Shown here piece by piece: positions 7,857 through 50,044 of a stretch of DNA of 64,000 nt (position 1 is the stretch's first letter; each line of letters starts with the position of its first letter). The stretch spans positions 1,240,001-1,304,000 of the forward strand of contig NZ_CP072378.1 of assembly GCF_018128245.1 (NCBI RefSeq), written 5' to 3'. Both the position numbers and the translations under genes were made by a program. Below the pieces are notes generated by a model, which had not been told where the DNA came from, made no database searches, and was given only the letters and a program-made list of their open reading frames with translations. This DNA is from Leptotrichia sp. oral taxon 221 (GTDB lineage Bacteria > Fusobacteriota > Fusobacteriia > Fusobacteriales > Leptotrichiaceae).

Positions 7857-8142
7857 TTTTTATAAAATCGCCCCCTAAAAATATTTCTACATAAAACTTT
7901 TTCCGTATAATTTAAAAAATAGCAATTCAAGTTTCTTTACTAAAGCTCTTTTTAGGAATCTTTTATAAAAGGTTTCTTAATTGCTATTGAATTTATATAT
8001 TTATCATCAAATACTTTTATCGTGAACTACTCCCACTTTTAGAAACGGAAACTTCTTGGGAAGTATCTGCTTTTGTTAGTCAAATATATTTACCAAGCTC
8101 TTTGGGTAGTTCCTACCCTGATATATTTAGTGTAATACATTT
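7857..8142. other. Gene-free stretch downstream of the SRP RNA
   Basis: No protein gene is visible. On the minus strand it holds a GGGTA/TACCC hairpin flanked by AAATATAT and ATATATTT arms, a CTTC/GAAG hairpin, a wobble-rich hairpin ending in GTGGGAGTAGTTCAC, and then the branched terminator described separately. The GTGGGAGTAGTTCAC ending resembles right ends of IS200/IS605 elements. Alternatively a second small RNA could be processed from the SRP transcript. Neither reading can be confirmed here. Confidence 0.4.
7914..7988 (-). terminator. Branched terminator-like structure of the SRP RNA transcript
   Basis: Minus strand AATAGCAATT pairs with AATTGCTATT and a T6 run follows. The enclosed 55 nt hold two further hairpins (CTTTTATAAAAG and CTTTAGTAAAG), giving a branched shape rather than a simple loop. 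It is the first plausible end for the RNA that starts at the SRP promoter. Confidence 0.6.
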
Positions 8143-8411
8143 TGCCATACATCAGACTCTCGAAAGAATTTTACCATCCGTTTCTTATAGAAAGAACTCA
8201 AAAACAGCTACCCTATAAACCTAGAGAAATTGACTTAGTGCTGCTTTGTTCCCAACCTGACACGGTTCACCAACTCTCTACAATATAGGACTATTTTCTC
8301 AACATTCTTTAGATAAGGCGTTGACACTAAAATCTCCCTCAAGTCTGACATCACCTCTACTAAAGCGGGTTGTAGATACAGGGCACCGCTATCTCCCCGG
8401 CTAGTATGACA
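8143..8411 (-). ncRNA. ffs: Signal recognition particle RNA, large type with Alu domain
   Basis: On the minus strand the 5' part carries the Alu-domain sequence GCCGGGGAGATAGCGGTGCC followed by ACAACCCGCT, close to the Bacillus scRNA. The S domain has GAACCGTGTCAGGTTGGGAA with the GGAA tetraloop and then AAAGCAGCACTAAG, the Ffh-binding helix 8. The ends TGTCATAC and GTATGGCA pair to close the molecule at about 270 nt. It has a consensus promoter just past the nfo stop. The large form is typical of Gram-positive lineages, so its presence in a diderm fits Fusobacteriota. Ends are set from the closing helix and are approximate. Confidence 0.93.
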
Positions 8412-8417
8412 AGTGTT

Positions 8418-8446
8418 ATTATATCATTTTCATATTCTAATGTCAA
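8418..8446 (-). promoter_or_regulatory. Promoter of the SRP RNA gene
   Basis: TTGACA and TATAAT separated by 17 bp, a perfect consensus that places the start about 7 bp downstream at the first bases of the SRP RNA. It suits a strong stable-RNA promoter. Confidence 0.92.
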
Positions 8447-8450
8447 CTTT

Positions 8451-9362
8451 TTATTTTTGATTTTTAATCTTTTCTAAAAGATTTTCATCAAATATTCCAT
8501 TTCTTAACATTTCAATCTCAAACTTATACGGTGGCAATTTCTTAGCACCTTTTTCTTCACTTAAAGCAACATATGGTGTTTCTAAAATTTTTGGCAAATG
8601 ACTGAACTTCTCAAAATGTGCAATTTTATTTAACGCATCAAAACCAATGTGACCAAATCCTATATTTTCGTGTCTATCTTTATGTGCACCAATAGGATTT
8701 TTGCTGTCATTTAAGTGAATTACAGAAATTCTGTCTATTCCTACAATTTTATCAAAATCATTGATTACGCCTTCAAAATCATTTACAATATCATATCCTG
8801 CATCGTGAACGTGGCACGTATCAAAGCAAATTGATAACTTATCTTTTAATTTTACACCGTCAATTATTTTAGCAATTTCTTCAAAACTTCTACCACATTC
8901 TGTACCTTTTCCAGCCATTGTTTCAAGTGCAACTGTTGTTTTCTGATCTTTTGTTAAAACTTCATTCAATCCTTCAATAATTTTATTTATTCCAACTTCT
9001 GCTCCCTCTCCAACGTGTGCTCCTGGATGTAACACTATTCTTTTTGCTCCAATTGCATCTGTTCTTTCGATTTCTGTTCTTAAAAATTGTACTGCAATTT
9101 CAAATGTTTCAGGTTTTATCGCATTTCCTAAATTAATAATATACGGTGCATGAACAACAATATCATCAATATCAATATTATTTTTTTTCATTAATTCTAA
9201 TCCTGCTTCAATATTTAATTCTTCAATTGGCTTTCTTCTAGTATTTTGTGGTGCACCAGTGTAAATCATAAATGTATTAGATCCGTAACTTATGGCTTCT
9301 TCTACTGATCCTAAAAACATTTTTTTTCCACTCATTCCCACGTGTGATCCTATTTTAAACAT
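8451..9362 (-). CDS. nfo: Endonuclease IV (AP endonuclease)
   Basis: Cleaves the backbone 5' of abasic sites in base-excision repair. The TIM-barrel family metal ligands are all visible: [27 protein letters not shown] and the [20 protein letters not shown] stretch. The length of 303 residues is slightly above the E. coli enzyme. The start MFKIGSHVG is standard for the family and has AGGAGG upstream. Confidence 0.97.
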
Positions 9363-9447
9363 TTTACCTCCTAATTTTGTTTTTATTTTCTGTTTTTTTA
9401 CTATATCAAATTATCGTATATTTTGCCACAAAAATTATTATTTTTAA

Positions 9448-10377
9448 TTATATTTTCATCAATAATAAATTTGTAGTTAATCCGGCTGCTGTCCCACTTA
9501 ACATAACAATGTCACCTTTTTTTATTTTCCCATTTTCAAAGGCCCAACATAAGGTGAATGGAACAGAAGCTGACACCATATTCCCATAATCTTTGAAAAT
9601 ATCAATGTATTTACCCTTTTTCACACCTAACTTTTTCATCATAAGCTCTAATGCGTGACTGGCTTGATGCGGAATAACCATATCAATATCTGTAATCTTC
9701 ATTTCATTCTTTTTCAAAAAATCGTCTACCATTTTTAAAGCCTTATTTTTTGATAATTTCAATACGCTTTTACCATTCATATCAAACATAAATTCTTCTT
9801 TTGTTTTTTCTGAATAATTTTTTGGATGATAATTAGACAGTCCACCTCTTATTTCTGTGAAATGAACTCCTTCTGACCAAGTTTTTTGCATTCCGTCAAT
9901 TACTCCAGAACCATTTTCACTATATTCTACTACTACTGCTGCTGCTGCATCACTAAATAGTTCGTAACTTTCCTTTTGATTAGGATTTGTAGCAATTGAT
10001 GGCACATCGACTGAAACAATTAGCACTCTTTTGTATCTTTTGGCATCAACCAAAAACGAAATCATATCTAATGCTGTAATAAAACTCGTACAAGTTGTAT
10101 TTATGTCTAATGCTGGAATATCAGTACCTTTTGCAATTTTTTCGTGAATTAATGCTGCCGTACATGGAATAGGCTGCACCGCAACTGCAGAAGCACTTAC
10201 AATACAGTCAATATCATTTATAGTAATTTTCGCATTCTCCATTGCTTTCTTGGCTGCTTTAACCCCAATTCCTAATTGTGTCTCATCTCCAGAAATTTTA
10301 TATCTAATTCCTCCTTTAAATTCCACTGTTTCTTTTGGTAAAACATACCCATACCCCTTAATCTCTAACTTTCTCAT
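9448..10377 (-). CDS. 3-oxoacyl-ACP synthase III-type ketosynthase
   Basis: Thiolase-fold condensing enzyme of the FabH/OleA class. The catalytic triad is visible as Cys96 (NTTCTSF), His237 (IPHQASH) and Asn266 (DYGNMVSAS). In 309 residues it covers both halves of the fold. It is the last gene of a tightly packed set with an adenylating enzyme, a metallo-beta-lactamase hydrolase and an NAD-dependent epimerase, with only 6 bp from the upstream stop. It could be housekeeping FabH, but no fab genes are nearby, and the company suggests condensation of acyl groups for a secondary lipid, as OleA does. The exact substrate is unknown. Confidence 0.85.
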   Translation of the reverse strand: MRKLEIKGYGYVLPKETVEFKGGIRYKISGDETQLGIGVKAAKKAMENAKITINDIDCIVSASAVAVQPIPCTAALIHEKIAKGTDIPALDINTTCTSFITALDMISFLVDAKRYKRVLIVSVDVPSIATNPNQKESYELFSDAAAAVVVEYSENGSGVIDGMQKTWSEGVHFTEIRGGLSNYHPKNYSEKTKEEFMFDMNGKSVLKLSKNKALKMVDDFLKKNEMKITDIDMVIPHQASHALELMMKKLGVKKGKYIDIFKDYGNMVSASVPFTLCWAFENGKIKKGDIVMLSGTAAGLTTNLLLMKI

Positions 10378-10383
10378 AGTAAT

Positions 10384-11667
10384 TTACAACTCCTTTTTTA
10401 TTTTTTGAAAAATTCTTCGCAATTTAACATTCTTTTCAGGTGCATATTCAATAAAATCAATTTTCACACCTTCTATTCCAAGTTTTTCAAATAATTTATC
10501 AAATTCTTTTGTTATCTCTTTTTTTTGAAAATCCTTAATCTCTAAAACTGCAACTTCTAATTTATCAAAATCTACTTGGAAAACTTGATATTCCCTTATT
10601 TCTTCACTAAAAAGTATACATCTTCTAATAAAATCTGGAAAAACTTTTTTTAATTTACCAAACTTATCTTTAAAAAAGAAAATATCATCTGAACGGCCTT
10701 CAATTTTATCTATTCTAGTAAAAACTGAACCACATTCACATTTATTCTTATTTTCAATCAAAATATCATTCAATTTATATTTTATAAATGGTTGACTTTT
10801 TCTCCTAAAATCACTAATAATCGGATAAAATCTCTTTTCATCTATATAATACTTTTCAAATTTTATACATTCTTCATTCAAGTGAATCGATCCACAATGA
10901 CAAGTGTACCCCAACAACCCTTCTGTCGCTTGATATATTTGATACACCATTTTTACACCGAATACTTCTTTTATAAATTCCTCATCTTTCTTCTCTAAAA
11001 TTTCTGCAACTGAAATTATTTGAATCGGATTGATTTTCAAGATTCCATCTAACTTTTTCTTACATAAAACTAAAAGCATTGAAGCTGGAGCCACTAAAAT
11101 TGTTGGATTATAATTATTCAGCTCATCAACATAAGTTTCAAAATCTTGAAATAAATCAAAATATTTTAATTTTATAAAAAATGAGTTAATACTTTTATAT
11201 AAATTATTATCTGCTCTTAGAAAAAATGCAATTTTATTACCAAAAAGCTTATTTTTAGGAAGCATTTTAGCAAGTATAAATCCAGCCCACACGCTTTGCT
11301 CATCGTCTGTTGTCACAAACATTCCACGATGTCCTGATGTTCCAGAAGACAATCCTACTGAAATATTTTTATACTTTTCAGAAAAATTACGAGTTTCTTC
11401 TCCATCAATAGCAATCTTAAACGCCTCGTCTTTTCGCACTCCAACCGTATTCAACTCATCAAAATTTTCCATCATAAATTGCTTATTCATAAAAAAATCA
11501 TTCAAATCAACTTTATGTTTCATAAAATATGGTGATTTCTTTTCAAAATATTTGATTTGTTTTTCTAACTTTTTATCTTGATATTTTTCTAATTTTTCTC
11601 TCGAATTCCATTTTCTCAGCCATCTAGCACTCACAAATTCCGATAATATTCTAATTATTTTCTTCAT
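10384..11667 (-). CDS. PaaK/CapK-like adenylate-forming enzyme (F390 synthetase-related)
   Basis: Member of the phenylacetate-CoA ligase-like branch of adenylate-forming enzymes, which activate a carboxylate with ATP. The nucleotide loop SSGTSGHRG lies near residue 107, QATEGLLGY near the acyl-binding region, and cysteines CHCG and CECG suggest a zinc site as in related proteins. The 427 residues match that branch. The start overlaps the end of the preceding hydrolase gene by 17 bp and the ketosynthase gene follows after 6 bp, so the products are probably made together. It may load or activate a fatty or aromatic acid for the neighbouring ketosynthase. Substrate and transfer partner are not shown by the sequence. 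Confidence 0.8.
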   Translation of the reverse strand: MKKIIRILSEFVSARWLRKWNSREKLEKYQDKKLEKQIKYFEKKSPYFMKHKVDLNDFFMNKQFMMENFDELNTVGVRKDEAFKIAIDGEETRNFSEKYKNISVGLSSGTSGHRGMFVTTDDEQSVWAGFILAKMLPKNKLFGNKIAFFLRADNNLYKSINSFFIKLKYFDLFQDFETYVDELNNYNPTILVAPASMLLVLCKKKLDGILKINPIQIISVAEILEKKDEEFIKEVFGVKMVYQIYQATEGLLGYTCHCGSIHLNEECIKFEKYYIDEKRFYPIISDFRRKSQPFIKYKLNDILIENKNKCECGSVFTRIDKIEGRSDDIFFFKDKFGKLKKVFPDFIRRCILFSEEIREYQVFQVDFDKLEVAVLEIKDFQKKEITKEFDKLFEKLGIEGVKIDFIEYAPEKNVKLRRIFQKIKKEL

Positions 11668-12475
11668 ACAAAATTTTCTTTATCCTTTCTTCAGGATCAT
11701 GACTAACAATCACATCTATTTTTTCTTTTTGAATGTTCTCCAAAATATCAATTCCTCTTTCATAATCCTTGAAATTATCTTGCACTAATTTAGGAAGCGT
11801 TCTCATTCTTTCTGTATACTTCATCAAATCTACTCCCCAGCAAACATCAGCTGCTATAAATAAATTTTTCTCCTTCACAAAAAGACAACCTTGCCCTCGA
11901 GAATGCCCATTTATCGAAGCTAAATACAAACTTCCATCTCCAAATAAGTCTTTAACTTTTACTGGAAAATCTTTTAATTTCTTGTATTCTTTTATTATTT
12001 CTACCCTTTCTTCAAAATATTTTGGAAGAAATTCCTTAAAAATAAGATCCTTTAACCTACTATTTTTATAATTTTCATAACAATCTTCTGTTATTATAAT
12101 TTTTGCATTTTGAAATTTTTTCACATCTCCAATATGATCTGGATGCAAATGCGATAAAATCACATATCGAATTTCATTTTGATTAATTCCTCTTTTTAAA
12201 AGTTGCTCAGAAATTAAATCTTCCTTCTTCAAAATAATCGGATTGGGTGCTCTATAAAGAAAATATTTAAAATTATTTTTCAAAATATCAATTCCGTAAC
12301 CTGTGTCATATAAAATATATCCAATTTCTCTATGTTTTATCAAAAAAACTCCAGCAGGAAAATTTATTATTCCAGAAAGTTTTTTTTCATTTTTCGAATT
12401 TTTAAACATTACTCCTAATTTATTTTTACAATAGCCACATGAAAAATAATCAACTCTTTCTATTATGTTCGACAT
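11651..12475 (-). CDS. MBL-fold metallo-hydrolase (lactonase-like)
   Basis: Metallo-beta-lactamase fold enzyme with a complete dinuclear metal motif: H109, H111, D113 and H114 in SHLHPDHIGD, then H191 (NGHSRGQ), D210 (AADVCWG) and a late His in VSHDPEE. The motif layout resembles N-acyl-homoserine lactonases and related ester or lactone hydrolases. There is no signal peptide, so it acts in the cytoplasm. The start overlaps the epimerase gene by about 25 bp and lacks its own good Shine-Dalgarno, which implies translational coupling. In this set it could hydrolyse a thioester or lactone intermediate; quorum-signal degradation is an alternative that the operon makes less likely. Confidence 0.83.
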   Translation of the reverse strand: MSNIIERVDYFSCGYCKNKLGVMFKNSKNEKKLSGIINFPAGVFLIKHREIGYILYDTGYGIDILKNNFKYFLYRAPNPIILKKEDLISEQLLKRGINQNEIRYVILSHLHPDHIGDVKKFQNAKIIITEDCYENYKNSRLKDLIFKEFLPKYFEERVEIIKEYKKLKDFPVKVKDLFGDGSLYLASINGHSRGQGCLFVKEKNLFIAADVCWGVDLMKYTERMRTLPKLVQDNFKDYERGIDILENIQKEKIDVIVSHDPEERIKKILYEENN

Positions 12476-13433
12476 ATTTTTTTACACCTTCTCTTACTGT
12501 CATTTTTGGCTTGTAACCCAATTCTTTTTTTGCTTTTTCAACTGATAAAGTCTGAGAATATCTCAATAAATACAGCGTATACAATGTTAATGGTGGCTCT
12601 TTTCTAATTTTAAAAAATGAATAAACTTTTTCTAGGATTGTTACAATGCCTTTTGTAAAAGAATAATTGAAATTCACATATTTACCTTTTATTCCCATTT
12701 CGGCAAAAAATAAATTTAAAATTTCCTTAAACTTCATAGGTTCATCATTTGTTATATTGTAAATTTTTCCCAATGCATTTTCATTTTCCATAGCCAATCT
12801 CAATGACAACGCCACATTCTCAACACAAGTCACATCTATCATTTGATTTCCACCTGCAAACAAAGGAATACCTATTTTACCATTCAATTTCAAAAGTCTT
12901 GGAACTATACTCGTATCCCCTACTCCAAAAAGCCCTCTCGGTCGAATTATTACCCATGATTTATAAGAACTTTCTTTTATTGATTTCTCAGCCATTAGTT
13001 TACTTTTTATATAAAAATTAAGGTTATTTTCAGTTGGAGCTTCTTCTTCTTTTACCTGTAAACTATCACCTTTTTTTGCATAAACACTTGGCGAAGATAC
13101 AAACACAAGCCTTTTCACATTTTGTTTCTCACAAAAGTCCAGTACATTTTGAGTTCCCAAAACATTCGCATTATAAAAATCTTCCCATCTTCCCCAAACT
13201 GTCGAAAGTCCTCCAGCATGAATAACAAAATCAATTTGATCTGTTATTTTTTCTAAATCTTCTCTATTTTCAAGATTTCCTTTCACAAATTTAACATTCT
13301 TATAATTCTCAGACAAATATTTTCCTTTTTTCTCATTTCTCCCAAAAGCCACAACTTCATAATCATTTTCCATAAGTTCCTGAATCATGTATTCGCCCAA
13401 AAAACCAGTAGCCCCTGTTAGTAATACTTTCAT
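12450..13433 (-). CDS. NAD-dependent epimerase/dehydratase (OleD / 3-beta-HSD-like)
   Basis: Extended short-chain dehydrogenase with the Rossmann motif GATGFLGEY at the N-terminus, VIHAGG, and the catalytic SSPSVYAKKG plus YIKSK (YxxxK). Family members of the 3-beta-hydroxysteroid dehydrogenase type include OleD, which reduces a 2-alkyl-3-keto acid. The start MKVLLTG is chosen because the earlier ATG touches the AAAGGAA ribosome site. It is the first gene of the four-gene overlapping set and has a plausible promoter about 130 bp upstream. Reduction of the ketosynthase product is inferred from context; nucleotide-sugar epimerisation is the main alternative. Confidence 0.82.
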   Translation of the reverse strand: MKVLLTGATGFLGEYMIQELMENDYEVVAFGRNEKKGKYLSENYKNVKFVKGNLENREDLEKITDQIDFVIHAGGLSTVWGRWEDFYNANVLGTQNVLDFCEKQNVKRLVFVSSPSVYAKKGDSLQVKEEEAPTENNLNFYIKSKLMAEKSIKESSYKSWVIIRPRGLFGVGDTSIVPRLLKLNGKIGIPLFAGGNQMIDVTCVENVALSLRLAMENENALGKIYNITNDEPMKFKEILNLFFAEMGIKGKYVNFNYSFTKGIVTILEKVYSFFKIRKEPPLTLYTLYLLRYSQTLSVEKAKKELGYKPKMTVREGVKKYVEHNRKS

Positions 13434-13561
13434 CTTCATTTCCTTTCAAAAATTATTTATTTTTAGATATCATTTTGTAATTTTTTTAGCAAAATCTCTA
13501 GTTTATTTCTTTTTATAATAAAATATTTATGATTCATGATATAATTTCTTTCTTTAATATT

Positions 13562-13590
13562 TTTATAGTTACTAATATTTTAACACTCAA
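13562..13590 (-). promoter_or_regulatory. Candidate promoter of the ketosynthase/epimerase locus
   Basis: TTGAGT and TATAAA with 17-bp spacing in the 205-bp gap between the glycosyltransferase and the epimerase. The implied leader is about 120 nt. The rest of this gap is AT-rich and shows no other clear signal. Confidence 0.5.
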
Positions 13591-13645
13591 TTATCATGTT
13601 TTCTATTTTATTTTAATTTTTTTGCATTTTATTACACAATCTATG

Positions 13646-14923
13646 CTATCTATTCACTTTTTCTTTCATCAATCTATCAATTTCACTCTTTAACACTTCA
13701 CTTGGATTATACTCTCTATATTTTTCAGAAACTTTTTTCAGATTATTCCATTCCTTACGATTCAAAAGTTCCCTTAATGCATTTTCAATCGAATTAATAT
13801 CCTTCAATTTAGCTGGAACACCTATATCTGCTATTTTTCCTCTCACTGCAAAATCAAATTGATCGTAATCGTGAGGAATTATAACTGATGGTTTATTGTA
13901 TTTTATGGCATTGTATAATATTCCTGCACCACCGTGATGAATAACATAATCTACCACAGGTAACACTGCCCCATAGTCGATATACTCGTAAATATGCACA
14001 TTATCTCTACTTTTTATAACAGGTTTTCCTTTTCCATTAATATTCCCTAACGAAACAATGAAACACACATCTGGAAACTTCGAACTCAATTCTTCAACTA
14101 TTCTTACAAGATTATTTTTTCCCCATAATAAATGTGTTCCATTTGTAACCAAGATACTTTTTTTAAATTTAGAAATATCTTCCAAAGTGTAATCCTTCAC
14201 ATCAAACTCAGATAAACAAGGCCCTGCCCATATTACTTGCTTCGGATAATCATCTCTAAACTCTAATTCTTTCATACCTAAAGCTAATATCGACTGTGGT
14301 GAATACAAATTTTCTTCCTTGTTTTCATTATACAGCTTAAAATCAAGTACTTTCAACTGTTTTGAAGCCAACACACACACAATTCTCTTAAAACTTCTTA
14401 TTACAAATCTTCCGAAGCTATCTCTCAATTTATATAAAAAACCTTCTCTTGGGTACCAACCACCCATATAACTTGGTGTCGTCGTCTTACTTTCAATCGC
14501 AAATGGTGTTGGTATTGAAGTTATCCAAGGGATATCCATCTTTTTCGCAATTAATCCTGCTGGAATCGCAATAAAATCAGCAATTACAACATCAGGTTTT
14601 CTCTTTTTGAACCCTTCTTCAAACTCTCTCGCAATCTCAGGAACTTGCGATATATTTCTTTTAAATTGTTTCCAATAAATAAAAGCATTCGTTTTTTCAG
14701 GCGTGTTCGCAATATCCTCGAAAAACGTAGGTTTATCTGGTAAAACTGGTACATGTTTCAGCCCCAATTTTTCTAAAAATTCTTGTCTTTTAACACCACT
14801 ATACACGCAAAGGTCGTATTTTTCATCATTTATCAACGGTTTTATTAACTCTAATATTGGAAATAGGTGTCCACTATAAGGTGGTACAACTACATCAATC
14901 TTTATTTTTCTTTGTTCCTCCAC
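13646..14923 (-). CDS. GT1-family glycosyltransferase (UDP-glycosyltransferase/MGT-like)
   Basis: Transfers a sugar from a nucleotide donor to a small, usually hydrophobic acceptor. The GT-B fold is suggested by the N-terminal PPYSGHLFPILELI and by the C-terminal donor-binding signature YIDYGAVLPVVDYVIHHGG followed by IIPHDYDQFD. Its 425 residues are standard, and there is no signal peptide or membrane segment. The start is a GTG with GAGG about 10 bases upstream. It follows an rRNA methyltransferase gene by about 25 bp and precedes the ketosynthase locus. I infer it glycosylates the product of that locus, but the intervening promoter means it could act separately. Confidence 0.85.
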   Translation of the reverse strand: MEEQRKIKIDVVVPPYSGHLFPILELIKPLINDEKYDLCVYSGVKRQEFLEKLGLKHVPVLPDKPTFFEDIANTPEKTNAFIYWKQFKRNISQVPEIAREFEEGFKKRKPDVVIADFIAIPAGLIAKKMDIPWITSIPTPFAIESKTTTPSYMGGWYPREGFLYKLRDSFGRFVIRSFKRIVCVLASKQLKVLDFKLYNENKEENLYSPQSILALGMKELEFRDDYPKQVIWAGPCLSEFDVKDYTLEDISKFKKSILVTNGTHLLWGKNNLVRIVEELSSKFPDVCFIVSLGNINGKGKPVIKSRDNVHIYEYIDYGAVLPVVDYVIHHGGAGILYNAIKYNKPSVIIPHDYDQFDFAVRGKIADIGVPAKLKDINSIENALRELLNRKEWNNLKKVSEKYREYNPSEVLKSEIDRLMKEKVNR

Positions 14924-14947
14924 AAATATTCATCCTCACTTAAATCT

Positions 14948-15721
14948 CTATTTATTTTTTTCTTTTTTCTCTCTCATTTTGTATAAAAACACCCCAGTTG
15001 CAACACTCACATTTAATGACTCAATATTTCCATAAATTGGAATAATCGCCTTAATATCAGAATTTTCAATCAAATAATCTGAAACGCCTCCACCTTCATG
15101 CCCAAAAATATAAGCATTTCTCTCTTTTTGCTCAATTTCATCATAAGAAATCGAATCTTCATGCAACGCTGTCGAAATCGTTAAATAATTCTTTTCCTTC
15201 AAAAATTTCACAATATTTTCTGGTGTTTCATAAATCACATTTAATTTAAAAATTCCACTCATTGTAGCTCTAACTGTTTTCGGATTATACACATCCACAG
15301 ATCCTTTTGTCAAAATCAAATTTCTAAAATCAGTCGCAATCATTGTTCTAATGATCGTCCCAACATTTCCTGGATCTTGTACATCATCCAAAATCACGAC
15401 ATCTCCCTCAATATCATCAATCGTATTCAAATTTTTTGAATACAAAAATATTATCCCTTGACTATTTTCTTGCGTTGAAACTTCATTAAACAGTTCATCT
15501 TTTAATATCGTTAAATTATCATGCTCACCAATATTGTAATTTTCATTAAAATATTCGTATCTCGACTCCTTCACAATTATTTTATTAAAATTAATTTTCT
15601 CATTCAGAAATTTTTCCCCTTCTGCCTTGAAAATATTATTTTCATCTCTATATTTTTTCTTATCTAGTTTTTTTAATAATTTGTAAAATTTATTATCCGA
15701 ACTTGCAATAACGTCTTTCAT
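14948..15721 (-). CDS. SpoU-family RNA 2'-O-methyltransferase
   Basis: SAM-dependent RNA ribose methyltransferase of the TrmH/SpoU class with the trefoil-knot signatures LDDVQDPGNVGTIIRT, IFGHEGGGVSD and IPIYGNIESLNVSVATGVFLY. Residues 1-90 form a substrate-binding N-terminal domain of the RNA_SpoU_sub_bind type, which points to an rRNA target. The longest frame opens with a TTG inside the AAAAGGAGAG ribosome site, so MKDVIASS is taken as the start, giving 257 residues. The exact modified nucleotide cannot be told from sequence. Confidence 0.9.
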   Translation of the reverse strand: MKDVIASSDNKFYKLLKKLDKKKYRDENNIFKAEGEKFLNEKINFNKIIVKESRYEYFNENYNIGEHDNLTILKDELFNEVSTQENSQGIIFLYSKNLNTIDDIEGDVVILDDVQDPGNVGTIIRTMIATDFRNLILTKGSVDVYNPKTVRATMSGIFKLNVIYETPENIVKFLKEKNYLTISTALHEDSISYDEIEQKERNAYIFGHEGGGVSDYLIENSDIKAIIPIYGNIESLNVSVATGVFLYKMREKKEKNK

Positions 15722-15835
15722 TTCTCTCCTTTTCAATTTTCCTAATTAATAAAAAATACTCAGACCACTTAAAATTGAATATTTATAAATTTCTCTCTTG
15801 TTTAAATATTATAAGTCTGTCTGAGCAATTAATTT

Positions 15836-16177
15836 TTATTTTAATGTAACTGGTAATTTTTCTCCACCTAAAATATGATAATGAATATGGAACACTTCTT
15901 GTCCTCCATTTCCATTAATATTTGTTATAACTCTGTATCCTTCTTCTGCAATTCCAAGTTGTCTAGCTATTTTAGCAATTACCAATTGTAATCTTCCAAG
16001 CAACAACGCATCTTCTTCTGTCGCCGCATCCAAATTTCTAATTTCTTTTTTTGGTATTACCAACACATGAACTTTAGCTTGAGGATTAATATCATTAAAT
16101 GCTAAAAAATCCTCATCTTCATAAACTATATTCGCTGGTATTTCTTTATCTATTATTTTTTTAAATATTGTTGACAC
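15836..16177 (-). CDS. HIT family protein (Hint/PKCI type)
   Basis: Histidine-triad nucleotide hydrolase, typically acting on nucleoside phosphoramidates or AMP-lysine. The triad HIHYH is in [12 protein letters not shown] near the C-terminus. The start is a GTG giving [15 protein letters not shown], the classic family opening; an earlier in-frame GTG is part of the GAGGTGATT ribosome site. The resulting 113 residues are typical. Neighbours are an RNA methyltransferase and rpiB, with no obvious functional link. Confidence 0.93.
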
Positions 16178-16253
16178 AACAATCACCTCTTTTATATTTC
16201 TTTTTTATTCTAAATAAAATGAATTACAATTTTTCAAATTTAATAAAATTTAC

Positions 16254-16697
16254 TTAACATCCACAACCGCAATCTTCAATTTTTCCAACTCTTCTTGCGT
16301 GTCTTCCACCTTCAAATTCTGTTGTAATAAATGTATCTACAATTGCTTTTCCTAATTCATCTCCAATAACTCTCGCTCCCAATGCAACAATATTTGCATT
16401 ATTATGAAGTCTTGCCATTCTAGCTGTAAATTCATTATGACACAAAGCTGCTCTAATTCCTTCAACTTTATTTGCCGCTATCGAAATTCCAATTCCTGTT
16501 CCACAAATAATTATTCCTAAATTTCCTTCTTCTGCCAAAACTTTTTCAGCAACAGATTTTGCAATATCAGGATAATCCACCGAATCCAATGTATCAGTCC
16601 CAACATTCACTACTTCATGCCCTTGTTCTTCCAAATGTTTCATTATTGTATTTTTAAATTCTACTCCTGCATGATCATTTCCAATTATTATTTTCAT
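16254..16697 (-). CDS. rpiB: Ribose-5-phosphate isomerase B
   Basis: Interconverts ribose 5-phosphate and ribulose 5-phosphate in the pentose phosphate pathway. Family motifs are GNDHAGVEFK at the start, the catalytic Cys in IICGTGIGIS, and GARVIG. At 147 residues it is full length. An unusual cysteine-rich tail, DCGCGC, closes the protein and could bind metal or be redox-active; I have no functional evidence for it. A LacA/LacB-like sugar isomerase is the main alternative, but no lac genes are near. No clear Shine-Dalgarno precedes the ATG. Confidence 0.93.
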   Translation of the reverse strand: MKIIIGNDHAGVEFKNTIMKHLEEQGHEVVNVGTDTLDSVDYPDIAKSVAEKVLAEEGNLGIIICGTGIGISIAANKVEGIRAALCHNEFTARMARLHNNANIVALGARVIGDELGKAIVDTFITTEFEGGRHARRVGKIEDCGCGC

Positions 16698-16807
16698 AGT
16701 CTAAAATCAAGTTCATTTACAAATATAAATTTATCAAATTATAAAATCCCTCTCTCCTTTCCTTCGAATACATTTTTCTTTTTTTAACATCCTCAACTTC
16801 AAAAAAA

Positions 16808-17215
16808 TTATTTTGTCAATTTTTCCAATAATTCATCTGATATTCTTTTCAAATTTCCATCATTATCCACAAAAACATTCACTGTTTCAGCTTTTGCCTT
16901 CAAAACATTTTTAGAATCATACATCTCATAAGAAAATCTAATTTTTATATTATTAATTTCTTCTATTTTTGCAAATACTTCAATTTCATCGTCATATTTT
17001 GCCGAATCAATATAATCAATATTTAGCGTTTTTACTGGTAAAATAAATCCTAATTCTTCCATTGATTTATACGGAAAAACATCCCGAAAATATTCTGTTC
17101 GTGCCATTTCCATCCATTTCAAATAATTTGAATGATAAACAACTCCCATTTTATCAGTATCGTAATAGTACACTTTTAATTTAATACTTTTCTTTTTCAA
17201 ATTTGTTTTTTTCAT
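16808..17215 (-). CDS. Acyl-CoA thioesterase, YbgC/4HBT type
   Basis: Hotdog-fold thioesterase. The active-site segment YYYDTDKMGVVYHSNYLKW contains the catalytic Asp and the conserved YHSNYLKWME of the YbgC/4-hydroxybenzoyl-CoA branch. At 135 residues it is full length and cytoplasmic. It sits in a run of small housekeeping genes (rpiB above, khpA below) with a 22-bp gap to the next upstream gene. Substrate chain length is not inferable. Confidence 0.88.
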   Translation of the reverse strand: MKKTNLKKKSIKLKVYYYDTDKMGVVYHSNYLKWMEMARTEYFRDVFPYKSMEELGFILPVKTLNIDYIDSAKYDDEIEVFAKIEEINNIKIRFSYEMYDSKNVLKAKAETVNVFVDNDGNLKRISDELLEKLTK

Positions 17216-17237
17216 AATTATTCCTTAATTACTTAAA

Positions 17238-17480
17238 TTATTGTTCTTTAACTTCAATTTTTACAACTTTTTTTTCTTTTTTTGCCAATGAAGAAATCAA
17301 AACTCTAAGTGATGTAATAATTCTTCCATTTTTCCCAATAACTTTTCCCATATCTACCTTAGCTACATTTATTGTAATATCTACATATTTCCCTTTTTCA
17401 TTGCTTTCAATCGTATAATTTTCAGTTGAATCCAATAAATTCTCAACCCAAAAATTAACTGTTTCAAAATATCTACTCAT
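17238..17480 (-). CDS. khpA: KH-domain RNA-binding protein KhpA
   Basis: Small single-domain KH protein of 80 residues with the RNA-binding loop MGKVIGKNGRIITSLR. KhpA proteins bind RNA widely and in Firmicutes and Fusobacteria act with KhpB in RNA metabolism and cell elongation. It usually sits near ribosome-associated genes. Here it is followed downstream by a thioesterase and preceded by a small DUF4911-like gene. Confidence 0.92.
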   Translation of the reverse strand: MSRYFETVNFWVENLLDSTENYTIESNEKGKYVDITINVAKVDMGKVIGKNGRIITSLRVLISSLAKKEKKVVKIEVKEQ

Positions 17481-17522
17481 TTTCCCTCCAATTCTCTCTT
17501 AAATTTTTCAATTTCCTACAAT

Positions 17523-48871: not shown

Positions 48872-50044
48872 ATGAAAATAGGAATTGATAAAATTGGATT
48901 TGCAATGCCTAAATATTTTTTAGATATCGCAGATTTGGCAAAAGCTAGAAACATTAATGCTAATAAATATGTAAAAGGGCTTTTACAATTGGAAATGAGT
49001 ATAGCACCAATTACTCAAGATATAGTTACTTTAGGTGCTACAGCTGCCTCGGAATTTTTGACTGAAGAAGATAAAAAAAATATTGATATGATAATAATCG
49101 GTACAGAATCTGGGATTGATCAAAGTAAATCAGCTTCTATTTTTATCCATAGTTTGCTGGGATTATCGCCATTTACGAGGGCTATTGAAGTGAAAGAGGC
49201 TTGTTATGGGGGAACAGCAGCTATTGCAATTGCTAAAAATCATGTGGCTTCTAATCCAGAATCATCTGTTCTTGTAATAACTAGTGATTTGGCAAAATAT
49301 GGAATTGGGGCAACAGGAGAATCAACACAAGGAGCTGGTAGCTGTGCAATGCTTATAAAAAAAGATCCAAGCATCTTAATTTTAAATGACGACAATGTTT
49401 ATCAAACTCGGGATATTATGGATTTTTGGCGTCCTAATTATTCAGATTTTCCTCATGTTGACGGACATTTCTCGACAAAACAATATTTAGATTGTTTAGA
49501 AACAACTTGGAATGAGTATTCTAAAAAATTTAATAAATCTTTAGACAATTTTGAAGCAATTTGTTTTCATTTACCTTTTCCAAAAATCGGTTTAAAAGGT
49601 TTAAATACAATAGTTCCAAAACAGGAAAATGAAAATTTAAAAGATAAATTAAATGAGAATTTCCATACTTCAATTATTTATAACCAAAAAGTAGGAAATA
49701 TTTATACTGGCTCTCTTTATTTGAACTTACTTTCGCTTCTTGAAAACTCAAAATCTTTGTCTAGCGGTGATAATATTTTGATGTATAGTTATGGAAGTGG
49801 TGCTGTTTGTGAAATATTTAGTGTAACTTTGGTTGATGGTTTTGAGAAACGATTGCGTTCTGATAGAATGGAAGATTTTGATACTCGTGTTAAACTTTCT
49901 ATTGAAGAATATGAAAAAATGTTTTTTGAGAAAATTGAGTTAGATGAAAATGGAAATTCTAGTTTTATTAATGATGATAATAGTTTGTTCTCGTTAGAAA
50001 AAATTGAAAATCATATGAGAATTTATAAAAAAAATAATTTTTAG
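48872..50044 (+). CDS. mvaS: Hydroxymethylglutaryl-CoA synthase
   Basis: Condenses acetyl-CoA with acetoacetyl-CoA to HMG-CoA. The catalytic Glu79 lies in GTESGID, the nucleophilic Cys111 in EACYGGTAA, and the His in CFHLPFPKIG. The 390 residues fit bacterial MvaS. An AGGCAGGAA lies just upstream. It is the first plus-strand gene of a two-gene operon with mvaA, 10 bp apart. Codon use and base composition look like the rest of the window. Confidence 0.96.
   Translation: MKIGIDKIGFAMPKYFLDIADLAKARNINANKYVKGLLQLEMSIAPITQDIVTLGATAASEFLTEEDKKNIDMIIIGTESGIDQSKSASIFIHSLLGLSPFTRAIEVKEACYGGTAAIAIAKNHVASNPESSVLVITSDLAKYGIGATGESTQGAGSCAMLIKKDPSILILNDDNVYQTRDIMDFWRPNYSDFPHVDGHFSTKQYLDCLETTWNEYSKKFNKSLDNFEAICFHLPFPKIGLKGLNTIVPKQENENLKDKLNENFHTSIIYNQKVGNIYTGSLYLNLLSLLENSKSLSSGDNILMYSYGSGAVCEIFSVTLVDGFEKRLRSDRMEDFDTRVKLSIEEYEKMFFEKIELDENGNSSFINDDNSLFSLEKIENHMRIYKKNNF

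Follow-up and report, generated by a model that had tools for sequence, protein, structure and literature searches.

A conserved four-enzyme cassette in Leptotrichia and distantly related bacteria: gene content, spread and a possible lipid product

Is a compact run of genes in the genome of Leptotrichia sp. oral taxon 221 a local oddity or a pathway in its own right, and, if a pathway, what might it make? In a window of 64,000 nucleotides (contig NZ_CP072378.1, positions 1,240,001 to 1,304,000; coordinates below count from its first letter), five minus-strand genes lie in a row from 14923 down to 9448. They encode a GT1 glycosyltransferase, an extended short-chain dehydrogenase/reductase (SDR), a metallo-beta-lactamase-fold (MBL) hydrolase, an adenylating enzyme and a beta-ketoacyl synthase III (KAS III, or KAS). 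The original prediction, made from the DNA letters alone, had described an Ole-like ketosynthase locus of four overlapping or nearly touching genes with a glycosyltransferase upstream. The open reading frames (ORFs) bear out this layout: the SDR and MBL genes overlap by 26 bp, the MBL and adenylating-enzyme genes by 17 bp, and the latter is separated from the KAS gene by 6 bp.

13646-14923, minus strand: GT1 glycosyltransferase (EryCIII/MGT-like), 425 aa, opens the set, starts with GTG
13440-13645, minus strand: gap of 206 bp between the GT1 and SDR genes
12450-13439, minus strand: extended SDR (OleD / 3-beta-HSD type), predicted beta-keto reductase, 329 aa, Y143-x3-K147
11651-12475, minus strand: MBL-fold metallo-hydrolase, predicted thioesterase or lactonase, 274 aa, HxHxDH-H-D-H intact
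10384-11667, minus strand: F390 synthetase-related / PaaK-type adenylate-forming enzyme (TIGR02304), 427 aa
9448-10377, minus strand: beta-ketoacyl synthase III (PRK07204-like), 309 aa, C96-H237-N266

We found that the locus is a cassette of distantly related bacteria rather than a local oddity. The reading that we prefer, and to which we give an even chance, is that its four enzymes make the acyl backbone of a lipid not yet described, whose head group is finished differently in each lineage, here by a sugar that the GT1 adds.

A four-gene unit and its spread

To survey the neighbourhood, genome contigs were searched with the adenylating enzyme alone, and the best 80 of 572 relatives were kept (34 of which carry Streptococcus titles). 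In all 80 loci a cassette KAS shares the strand of the adenylating enzyme; an SDR does so in 78, an MBL gene in 77, and all four genes occur together in 76. The other four loci are two SDR-MBL fusions (L098 and L105) and two contigs shorter than 3.8 kb (L085 and L089). The order SDR-MBL-F390-KAS is seen in 61 loci and KAS-SDR-MBL-F390 in 15. Such grouping is far beyond chance, and the four genes are a real unit. Within Fusobacteriota, for which the original prediction had proposed a survey, 14 of 98 genomes exceed the TIGR02304 cut-off and the four genes are present in every one of them, with the KAS gene of one carrier (L126) lying 3 kb away from the rest; judged by its length, the contig of one of the 14 (G071) is identical with that of L035 among the best 80. 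Seven of nine sub-cut-off Fusobacteriota matches, when checked, had no partners in short flanks, and one of the seven, L034, had none over 17 kb. Protein distances of the four enzymes correlate with one another (r 0.835-0.893; 0 of 500 shuffles as high; 59 of 92 loci after thinning), a correlation to which shared genome descent contributes, since the comparison held no housekeeping control.

Named isolates with the cassette come from five phyla: Fusobacteriota, Bacillota, Actinomycetota, Pseudomonadota and Mycoplasmatota. Its Escherichia coli form is a seven-gene stretch adjoining narGHJI, in which the four genes are joined by PAP2, fatty-acid hydroxylase and desaturase genes; 671 of 5,426 complete genomes, about an eighth, hold 80% or more of this stretch. 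At the DNA level, comparing the window stretch with E. coli gave no match, and it was a protein search of plasmids that led to this form. The plasmid collection yielded 54 matching records, and 10 of the 12 inspected have all four genes (5 judged by annotation alone, the others also by profile).

Some observations stand beside this survey. Contigs from metagenome bins labelled Candidatus Saccharibacteria and Campylobacteraceae (bin labels unchecked) also carry the cassette, as does Acholeplasma oculi (loci L073, L074 and L103). On two giant Pseudomonas plasmids (L021 and L129) a TIGR02304 gene stands among many hypothetical genes, either with none of its three partners or with just the MBL gene; in L021 an ATP-grasp-like ORF lies about 1 kb downstream of it. 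One contig (L023, NZ_CP084075.1) is entered as a 2.1-Mb Fusobacterium vincentii 'plasmid' with one annotated feature and looks like a mislabelled chromosome.

The four enzymes

The KAS III had been called an Ole-like ketosynthase with an intact Cys-His-Asn triad. The triad is there: C96, H237 and N266 are invariant in an alignment of 96 family members including the window protein, and both ACP_syn_III and its C-terminal domain score over their Pfam cut-offs. The Ole label did not survive. We located the position of the OleA glutamate via V94 of MxnB (PMC4578411) and alignment to the cassette KAS; the window residue at the place of OleA E117 and PpyS E105 is I70, and of the 96 proteins 87 have Ile and 9 have Leu at this position, directly followed by an invariant proline (P71). 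According to PMC7064751, OleA has Glu-Pro there in all but two of the aligned proteins, and Kresovic and others (PMC4578411) report that MxnB and CorB have Val and belong to the FabH clade. When a profile of the KAS family was run against Protein Data Bank (PDB) chains, the closest solved structures were MxnB (300 bits) and CorB (285), then the best FabH (252) and PqsD (154), with PqsC also matching. Chains 3fk5_A and 3row_A, named 3-oxoacyl synthase III and taken by us to be Xanthomonas OleA, reached 99 and 98 bits. These scores and the Ile/Leu position rule out a true OleA.

Among named families, the KAS scores 317 bits with NF005541 (PRK07204; cut-off 402) and 173 bits with the fabH model TIGR00747 (cut-off 292), and the genome has a second FabH (at C1:810341, with a FabD-like ORF after it). 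In a tree built by a quick method from 42 of the 96 cassette KAS and 3 FabH, the latter form one branch (support 100), outside which 41 of the 42 fall; the KAS of L022, odd in composition, was placed beside FabH at a support of just 26. MxnB and CorB form a long separate branch, placed without resolution. Most fusobacterial and streptococcal KAS are neighbours (support 91), with Enterococcus outside them and L032 and L033, from the family of the window organism, distant. Judged by sequence, the cassette KAS is a paralogue separate from the other FabH of the genome. An early stretch of the KAS, from a Pro to an Arg, spans 9-10 residues in 65 of the 96 (window protein included) and 28 in 12, as counted by a rough text pattern that gave other lengths in 13, partly from wrong starts, and no match in 6; the fusobacterial form is about 18 residues shorter near the N terminus. 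In E. coli FabH this stretch presumably carries the CoA-binding Trp32, so the shortening suggests substrates bound to acyl carrier protein (ACP) rather than to CoA. Elsewhere in the window, where most long ORFs occupy the minus strand, a plus-strand ORF of 390 aa (48872-50044) has a sub-cut-off ACP_syn_III_C match of 24.5 bits; our guess is an HMG-CoA-synthase-like gene.

The adenylating enzyme belongs to the NCBIfam family TIGR02304, 'F390 synthetase-related protein' (563.4 bits, cut-off 251.9), a name that assigns no reaction, and has no Pfam match at E 0.001. Coenzyme F390 synthetase proper was rejected (TIGR03335, 27 bits against a cut-off of 459). G109, T110, S111, T248, E249, D301, G324, R325 and D328 are kept in 96 of 96 family members and K415 in 95. 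A structure model from 14 sequences (pLDDT 86.7, pTM 0.83; residues 110-112 poorly predicted) was compared with the PDB using Foldseek, and the first 32 matches were all PaaK-type ligases, among them BT_0428, PaaK1, NatL2, AjiA1 and ClxA (14-17% identity, TM 0.57-0.71). The earlier PaaK/CapK-like call is corrected in that the enzyme is, by family, a TIGR02304 member and not PaaK or CapK itself. NatL2, AjiA1 and ClxA join an acyl-adenylate to a second molecule without CoA, and we therefore propose that the cassette enzyme may form an ester, amide or lactone. No OleC model appeared among its NCBIfam matches, the presence of such a model in the library being unchecked. A ligase annotated as F390 synthetase is mentioned for a Desulfotalea-type fatty-acid cluster in PMC2649909, a likeness by annotation name.

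The SDR scores 131 bits with Pfam Epimerase and 121 with 3Beta_HSD, both over the cut-offs. It had been described as an OleD-like epimerase, and OleD is indeed its best named family, top of 46 (NF042422 187.5 bits, NF042423 183.7), at a score well below the cut-off of 580. Tyr143 and Lys147 are kept in 94 of 94 proteins. The MBL enzyme matches Lactamase_B over the Pfam cut-off (49.8 bits), as had been predicted, and its metal ligands (HxHxDH, H191, D210 and H259) are present in 93 of 93. By sequence it is nearest to the acyl-homoserine lactone (AHL) lactonases, well below every lactonase cut-off listed (AttM 80.5 against 390, AiiA 49.3 against 375), and its closest PDB entries are lactonases. 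Trp213, three residues past the bridging Asp D210, is found in 93 of 93 and occupies what we take to be the place of AiiA Tyr194. An AHL lactonase of the AttM/AiiA kind is ruled out by the cut-offs and this Tyr-to-Trp change. In two loci, both from metagenome-derived genomes, the SDR and MBL enzymes are fused: L098 (6942-8963) encodes a 673-aa SDR-MBL protein and L105 (5859-9017) a protein of 1052 aa with SDR and MBL parts that both gave scores. The N-terminal part of the latter looks like GT1 by eye, a phmmer search with the window GT1 gave no match there, and a broader GT1 profile matches somewhere within 6 kb in that locus.

Partner genes and insertion site

A sugar-transfer step had been suggested to follow, and a glycosyltransferase proved a frequent partner: 57 of the 80 loci have one within 6 kb on either strand (GT1 in 45, GT4 in 9, GT21 without GT1 in 2 and GT2 in 1). 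The GT1 of the window exceeds the Pfam cut-offs of EryCIII-like_C (36.4 bits, cut-off 31.7), which upholds the predicted family, and Glyco_tran_28_C (30.6, cut-off 22), and it fails membership of the macrolide-type GT1 family MGT (TIGR01426, 55.5 against 260). An ATP-grasp gene is found within 6 kb in 15 loci, all titled Bacillales-type organisms, and in none of the 80 together with a glycosyltransferase. Other lineages show other partners. Most fusobacterial relatives add GT21, which we take to be the ceramide glucosyltransferase family, a classical SDR and a roughly 213-aa protein whose match to lipase-like folds is weak and of low confidence (best E 2.9e-4, TM 0.39-0.43, model pLDDT 69). 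In L069 an ACP and FabF follow the KAS, and in L071 (5891-13637) a GT2, a phosphopantetheinyl transferase, the cassette, an ACP, a FabD-like protein and FabF lie in a row that resembles an acyl-making operon complete in almost every part; among the remaining loci scanned, a rough text-pattern search gave no other convincing ACP. A divergent sulfotransferase adjoins the cassette in 3 of 3 Rhodobacterales inspected, a Paraburkholderia plasmid cassette has ATP-grasp and GNAT genes beside it, and in a Rhizobium the partner is DUF3419, presumably the family that includes BtaA, the aminocarboxypropyl transferase of betaine lipids.

The cassette is flanked in the window by two genes that lie outside it.

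8451-9362, minus strand: nfo (deoxyribonuclease IV), NF002196 482 bits
14948-15736, minus strand: SpoU-family RNA methyltransferase, Pfam SpoU_methylase 125 bits

We compared this junction (that of the window and of loci L169 and L170) across six close relatives in which both flanking genes match well on one contig. The matches are 2-10 bases apart in G001, G006 and G010; in G002, G008 and G011 they enclose 1.2-10 kb of other DNA, with other genes in between in G002 and G011. Since the flanks adjoin in three relatives and enclose other DNA in three, the cassette sits in an insertion site. G006 has its own cassette elsewhere on the same contig and an empty junction. The patchy spread and the empty site are observed, and the cassette is horizontally mobile. 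Phage cargo was rejected: a viral-contig search with the SDR alignment gave 22 pattern matches, none of them a relative.

A possible lipid backbone and competing explanations

We infer substrates, step order and product as follows. The KAS III would condense an acyl chain, probably ACP-carried, with malonyl-ACP or a second beta-ketoacyl thioester. The MBL enzyme would then release an unstable beta-keto acid, which the SDR would at once reduce to a beta-hydroxy acid. That these two steps are consecutive is suggested by the fusion of SDR and MBL in two loci, and the order would be sensible were the MBL enzyme to set free a beta-keto acid, because the free acid would otherwise decarboxylate; OleD acts on beta-keto acids. 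The PaaK-type enzyme would adenylate the carboxylate and form an ester, an amide or a lactone by coupling it to a hydroxyl or amine or to itself, and the GT1 would glycosylate the hydroxyl. We link the cassette to lipids because of the GT21 of fusobacterial relatives, the hydroxylase, desaturase and PAP2 of E. coli and the ACP and FabF of L069 and L071. The common denominator would be a hydroxyl-bearing acyl backbone, decorated differently by lineage. A bolder extension, possible though doubtful in our view, is that the cassette serves as a portable biosynthetic module, passed between five phyla, and that its products form an entire class of membrane lipids without glycerol, as yet undescribed, with one backbone and interchangeable head groups. 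Under the same doubt, the head groups would be sugars, an amino acid via ATP-grasp, sulfate and aminocarboxypropyl via DUF3419, and the spread, if the bins are right, would also take in Campylobacterota and Saccharibacteria.

Several observations weigh against the lipid-backbone proposal. The sampling of 80 loci favours near relatives of the query. Among the 12 plasmid loci, 1 has the adenylating enzyme alone and 1 the MBL and adenylating enzymes. GT1 is not universal, as its 45 of 80 loci show, and 8 of the 80, two being short contigs, have neither a glycosyltransferase nor an ATP-grasp; the mutual exclusion of these two is suggestive and not proof, because it follows lineage and may be phylogeny. 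In the window itself, the 206-bp gap means that the GT1 may or may not be co-transcribed with the cassette, whereas the GT1 and SDR genes overlap in the relatives L027 and L029. Promoter-like matches in this gap reach only 9 of 12; the region 8000-17500 has 67 such matches, against 53.7 +/- 6.7 in shuffles. Beside the window cassette we found no ACP or other fatty-acid gene, and the GT21, classical SDR and lipase-like gene of its relatives are absent; a search of this genome, run without a positive control, did not find the GT21 and the lipase-like gene elsewhere.

The cassette product might instead be a pyrone-like compound or a small signal that diffuses, if pqsABCDE or the chain fusion of MxnB and CorB is taken as the model, which we consider unlikely. 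The pqsABCDE operon also combines an ANL ligase, a KAS III and an MBL thioesterase, and PqsD and PqsC are among the matches of the KAS profile. It is not known to have an SDR or glycosyltransferase, and the KAS similarity to PqsD is lower. As for MxnB and CorB, they lead the profile matches and likewise have a hydrophobic residue in place of the glutamate (PMC4578411). They differ in that no type I polyketide synthase lies beside the window cassette, whose KAS is partnered by the SDR, MBL and adenylating enzymes, in the shortened N terminus of the fusobacterial KAS and in their own unresolved tree branch, and the presence of GT21, desaturase, hydroxylase and FabF among the partners speaks for long chains and membranes.

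A true Ole-type route, in which a 2-alkyl-3-keto acid is reduced by the SDR, closed to a beta-lactone by the adenylating enzyme and opened or decarboxylated by the MBL enzyme in the place of OleB, is less probable again. Here, too, a thiolase-fold condensing enzyme, an extended SDR nearest to OleD, an adenylate-forming enzyme and a hydrolase share one operon, and the lactonase-like structure of the MBL enzyme would suit it; the predicted match between the four chemistries (condense, reduce, adenylate, hydrolyse) and Ole logic stands. The KAS argues against it, with Ile or Leu at the glutamate place throughout and a far closer relation to MxnB, CorB and FabH than to OleA-type chains, as do the PaaK-type adenylating enzyme and the Trp at the presumed place of AiiA Tyr194, and we know of no case of lactone decarboxylation by an MBL enzyme. 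The claim that unrelated enzyme classes fill the OleB and OleC positions holds for the MBL enzyme, which replaces an alpha/beta-hydrolase, and fails for OleC if, as we take it, OleC is an ANL adenylating enzyme, because PaaK-type enzymes are ANL too. One described oleACD cluster also contains a glycosyltransferase, according to PMC7064751. The cassette is Ole-like in its predicted function and logic, not Ole by membership.

A catabolic or detoxifying set, degrading for example lactones or fatty acids of the host or of neighbours, is very improbable: catabolism does use lactonase-like MBL and PaaK-like ligases, but the condensing triad of the KAS III is intact in 96 of 96, and L069 and L071 have ACP, FabD-like, FabF and phosphopantetheinyl transferase partners (no systematic search for catabolic genes was made). 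A housekeeping FabH among chance neighbours is scarcely credible, for although the KAS lies within the broad FabH/KAS III superfamily, the fabH score, the other FabH of the genome and the tree set it apart and its neighbours are conserved, so that the neighbourhood survey refutes this reading. The outcome that the original prediction had named as its own refutation, a KAS grouping with housekeeping FabH beside neighbours that relatives do not share, is clearly not what was observed.

Our searches, which covered open-licence literature, gave no description of the cassette. This fixed four-gene set is present in about an eighth of complete E. coli genomes, in many streptococci, those of the mouth included, and in a minority of Fusobacteriota. 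If a lipid is its product, as we propose, these common human-associated bacteria would make an undescribed membrane or signalling lipid, TIGR02304 would gain a role, and the condense-reduce-adenylate logic known from Ole would have a second way of being assembled.

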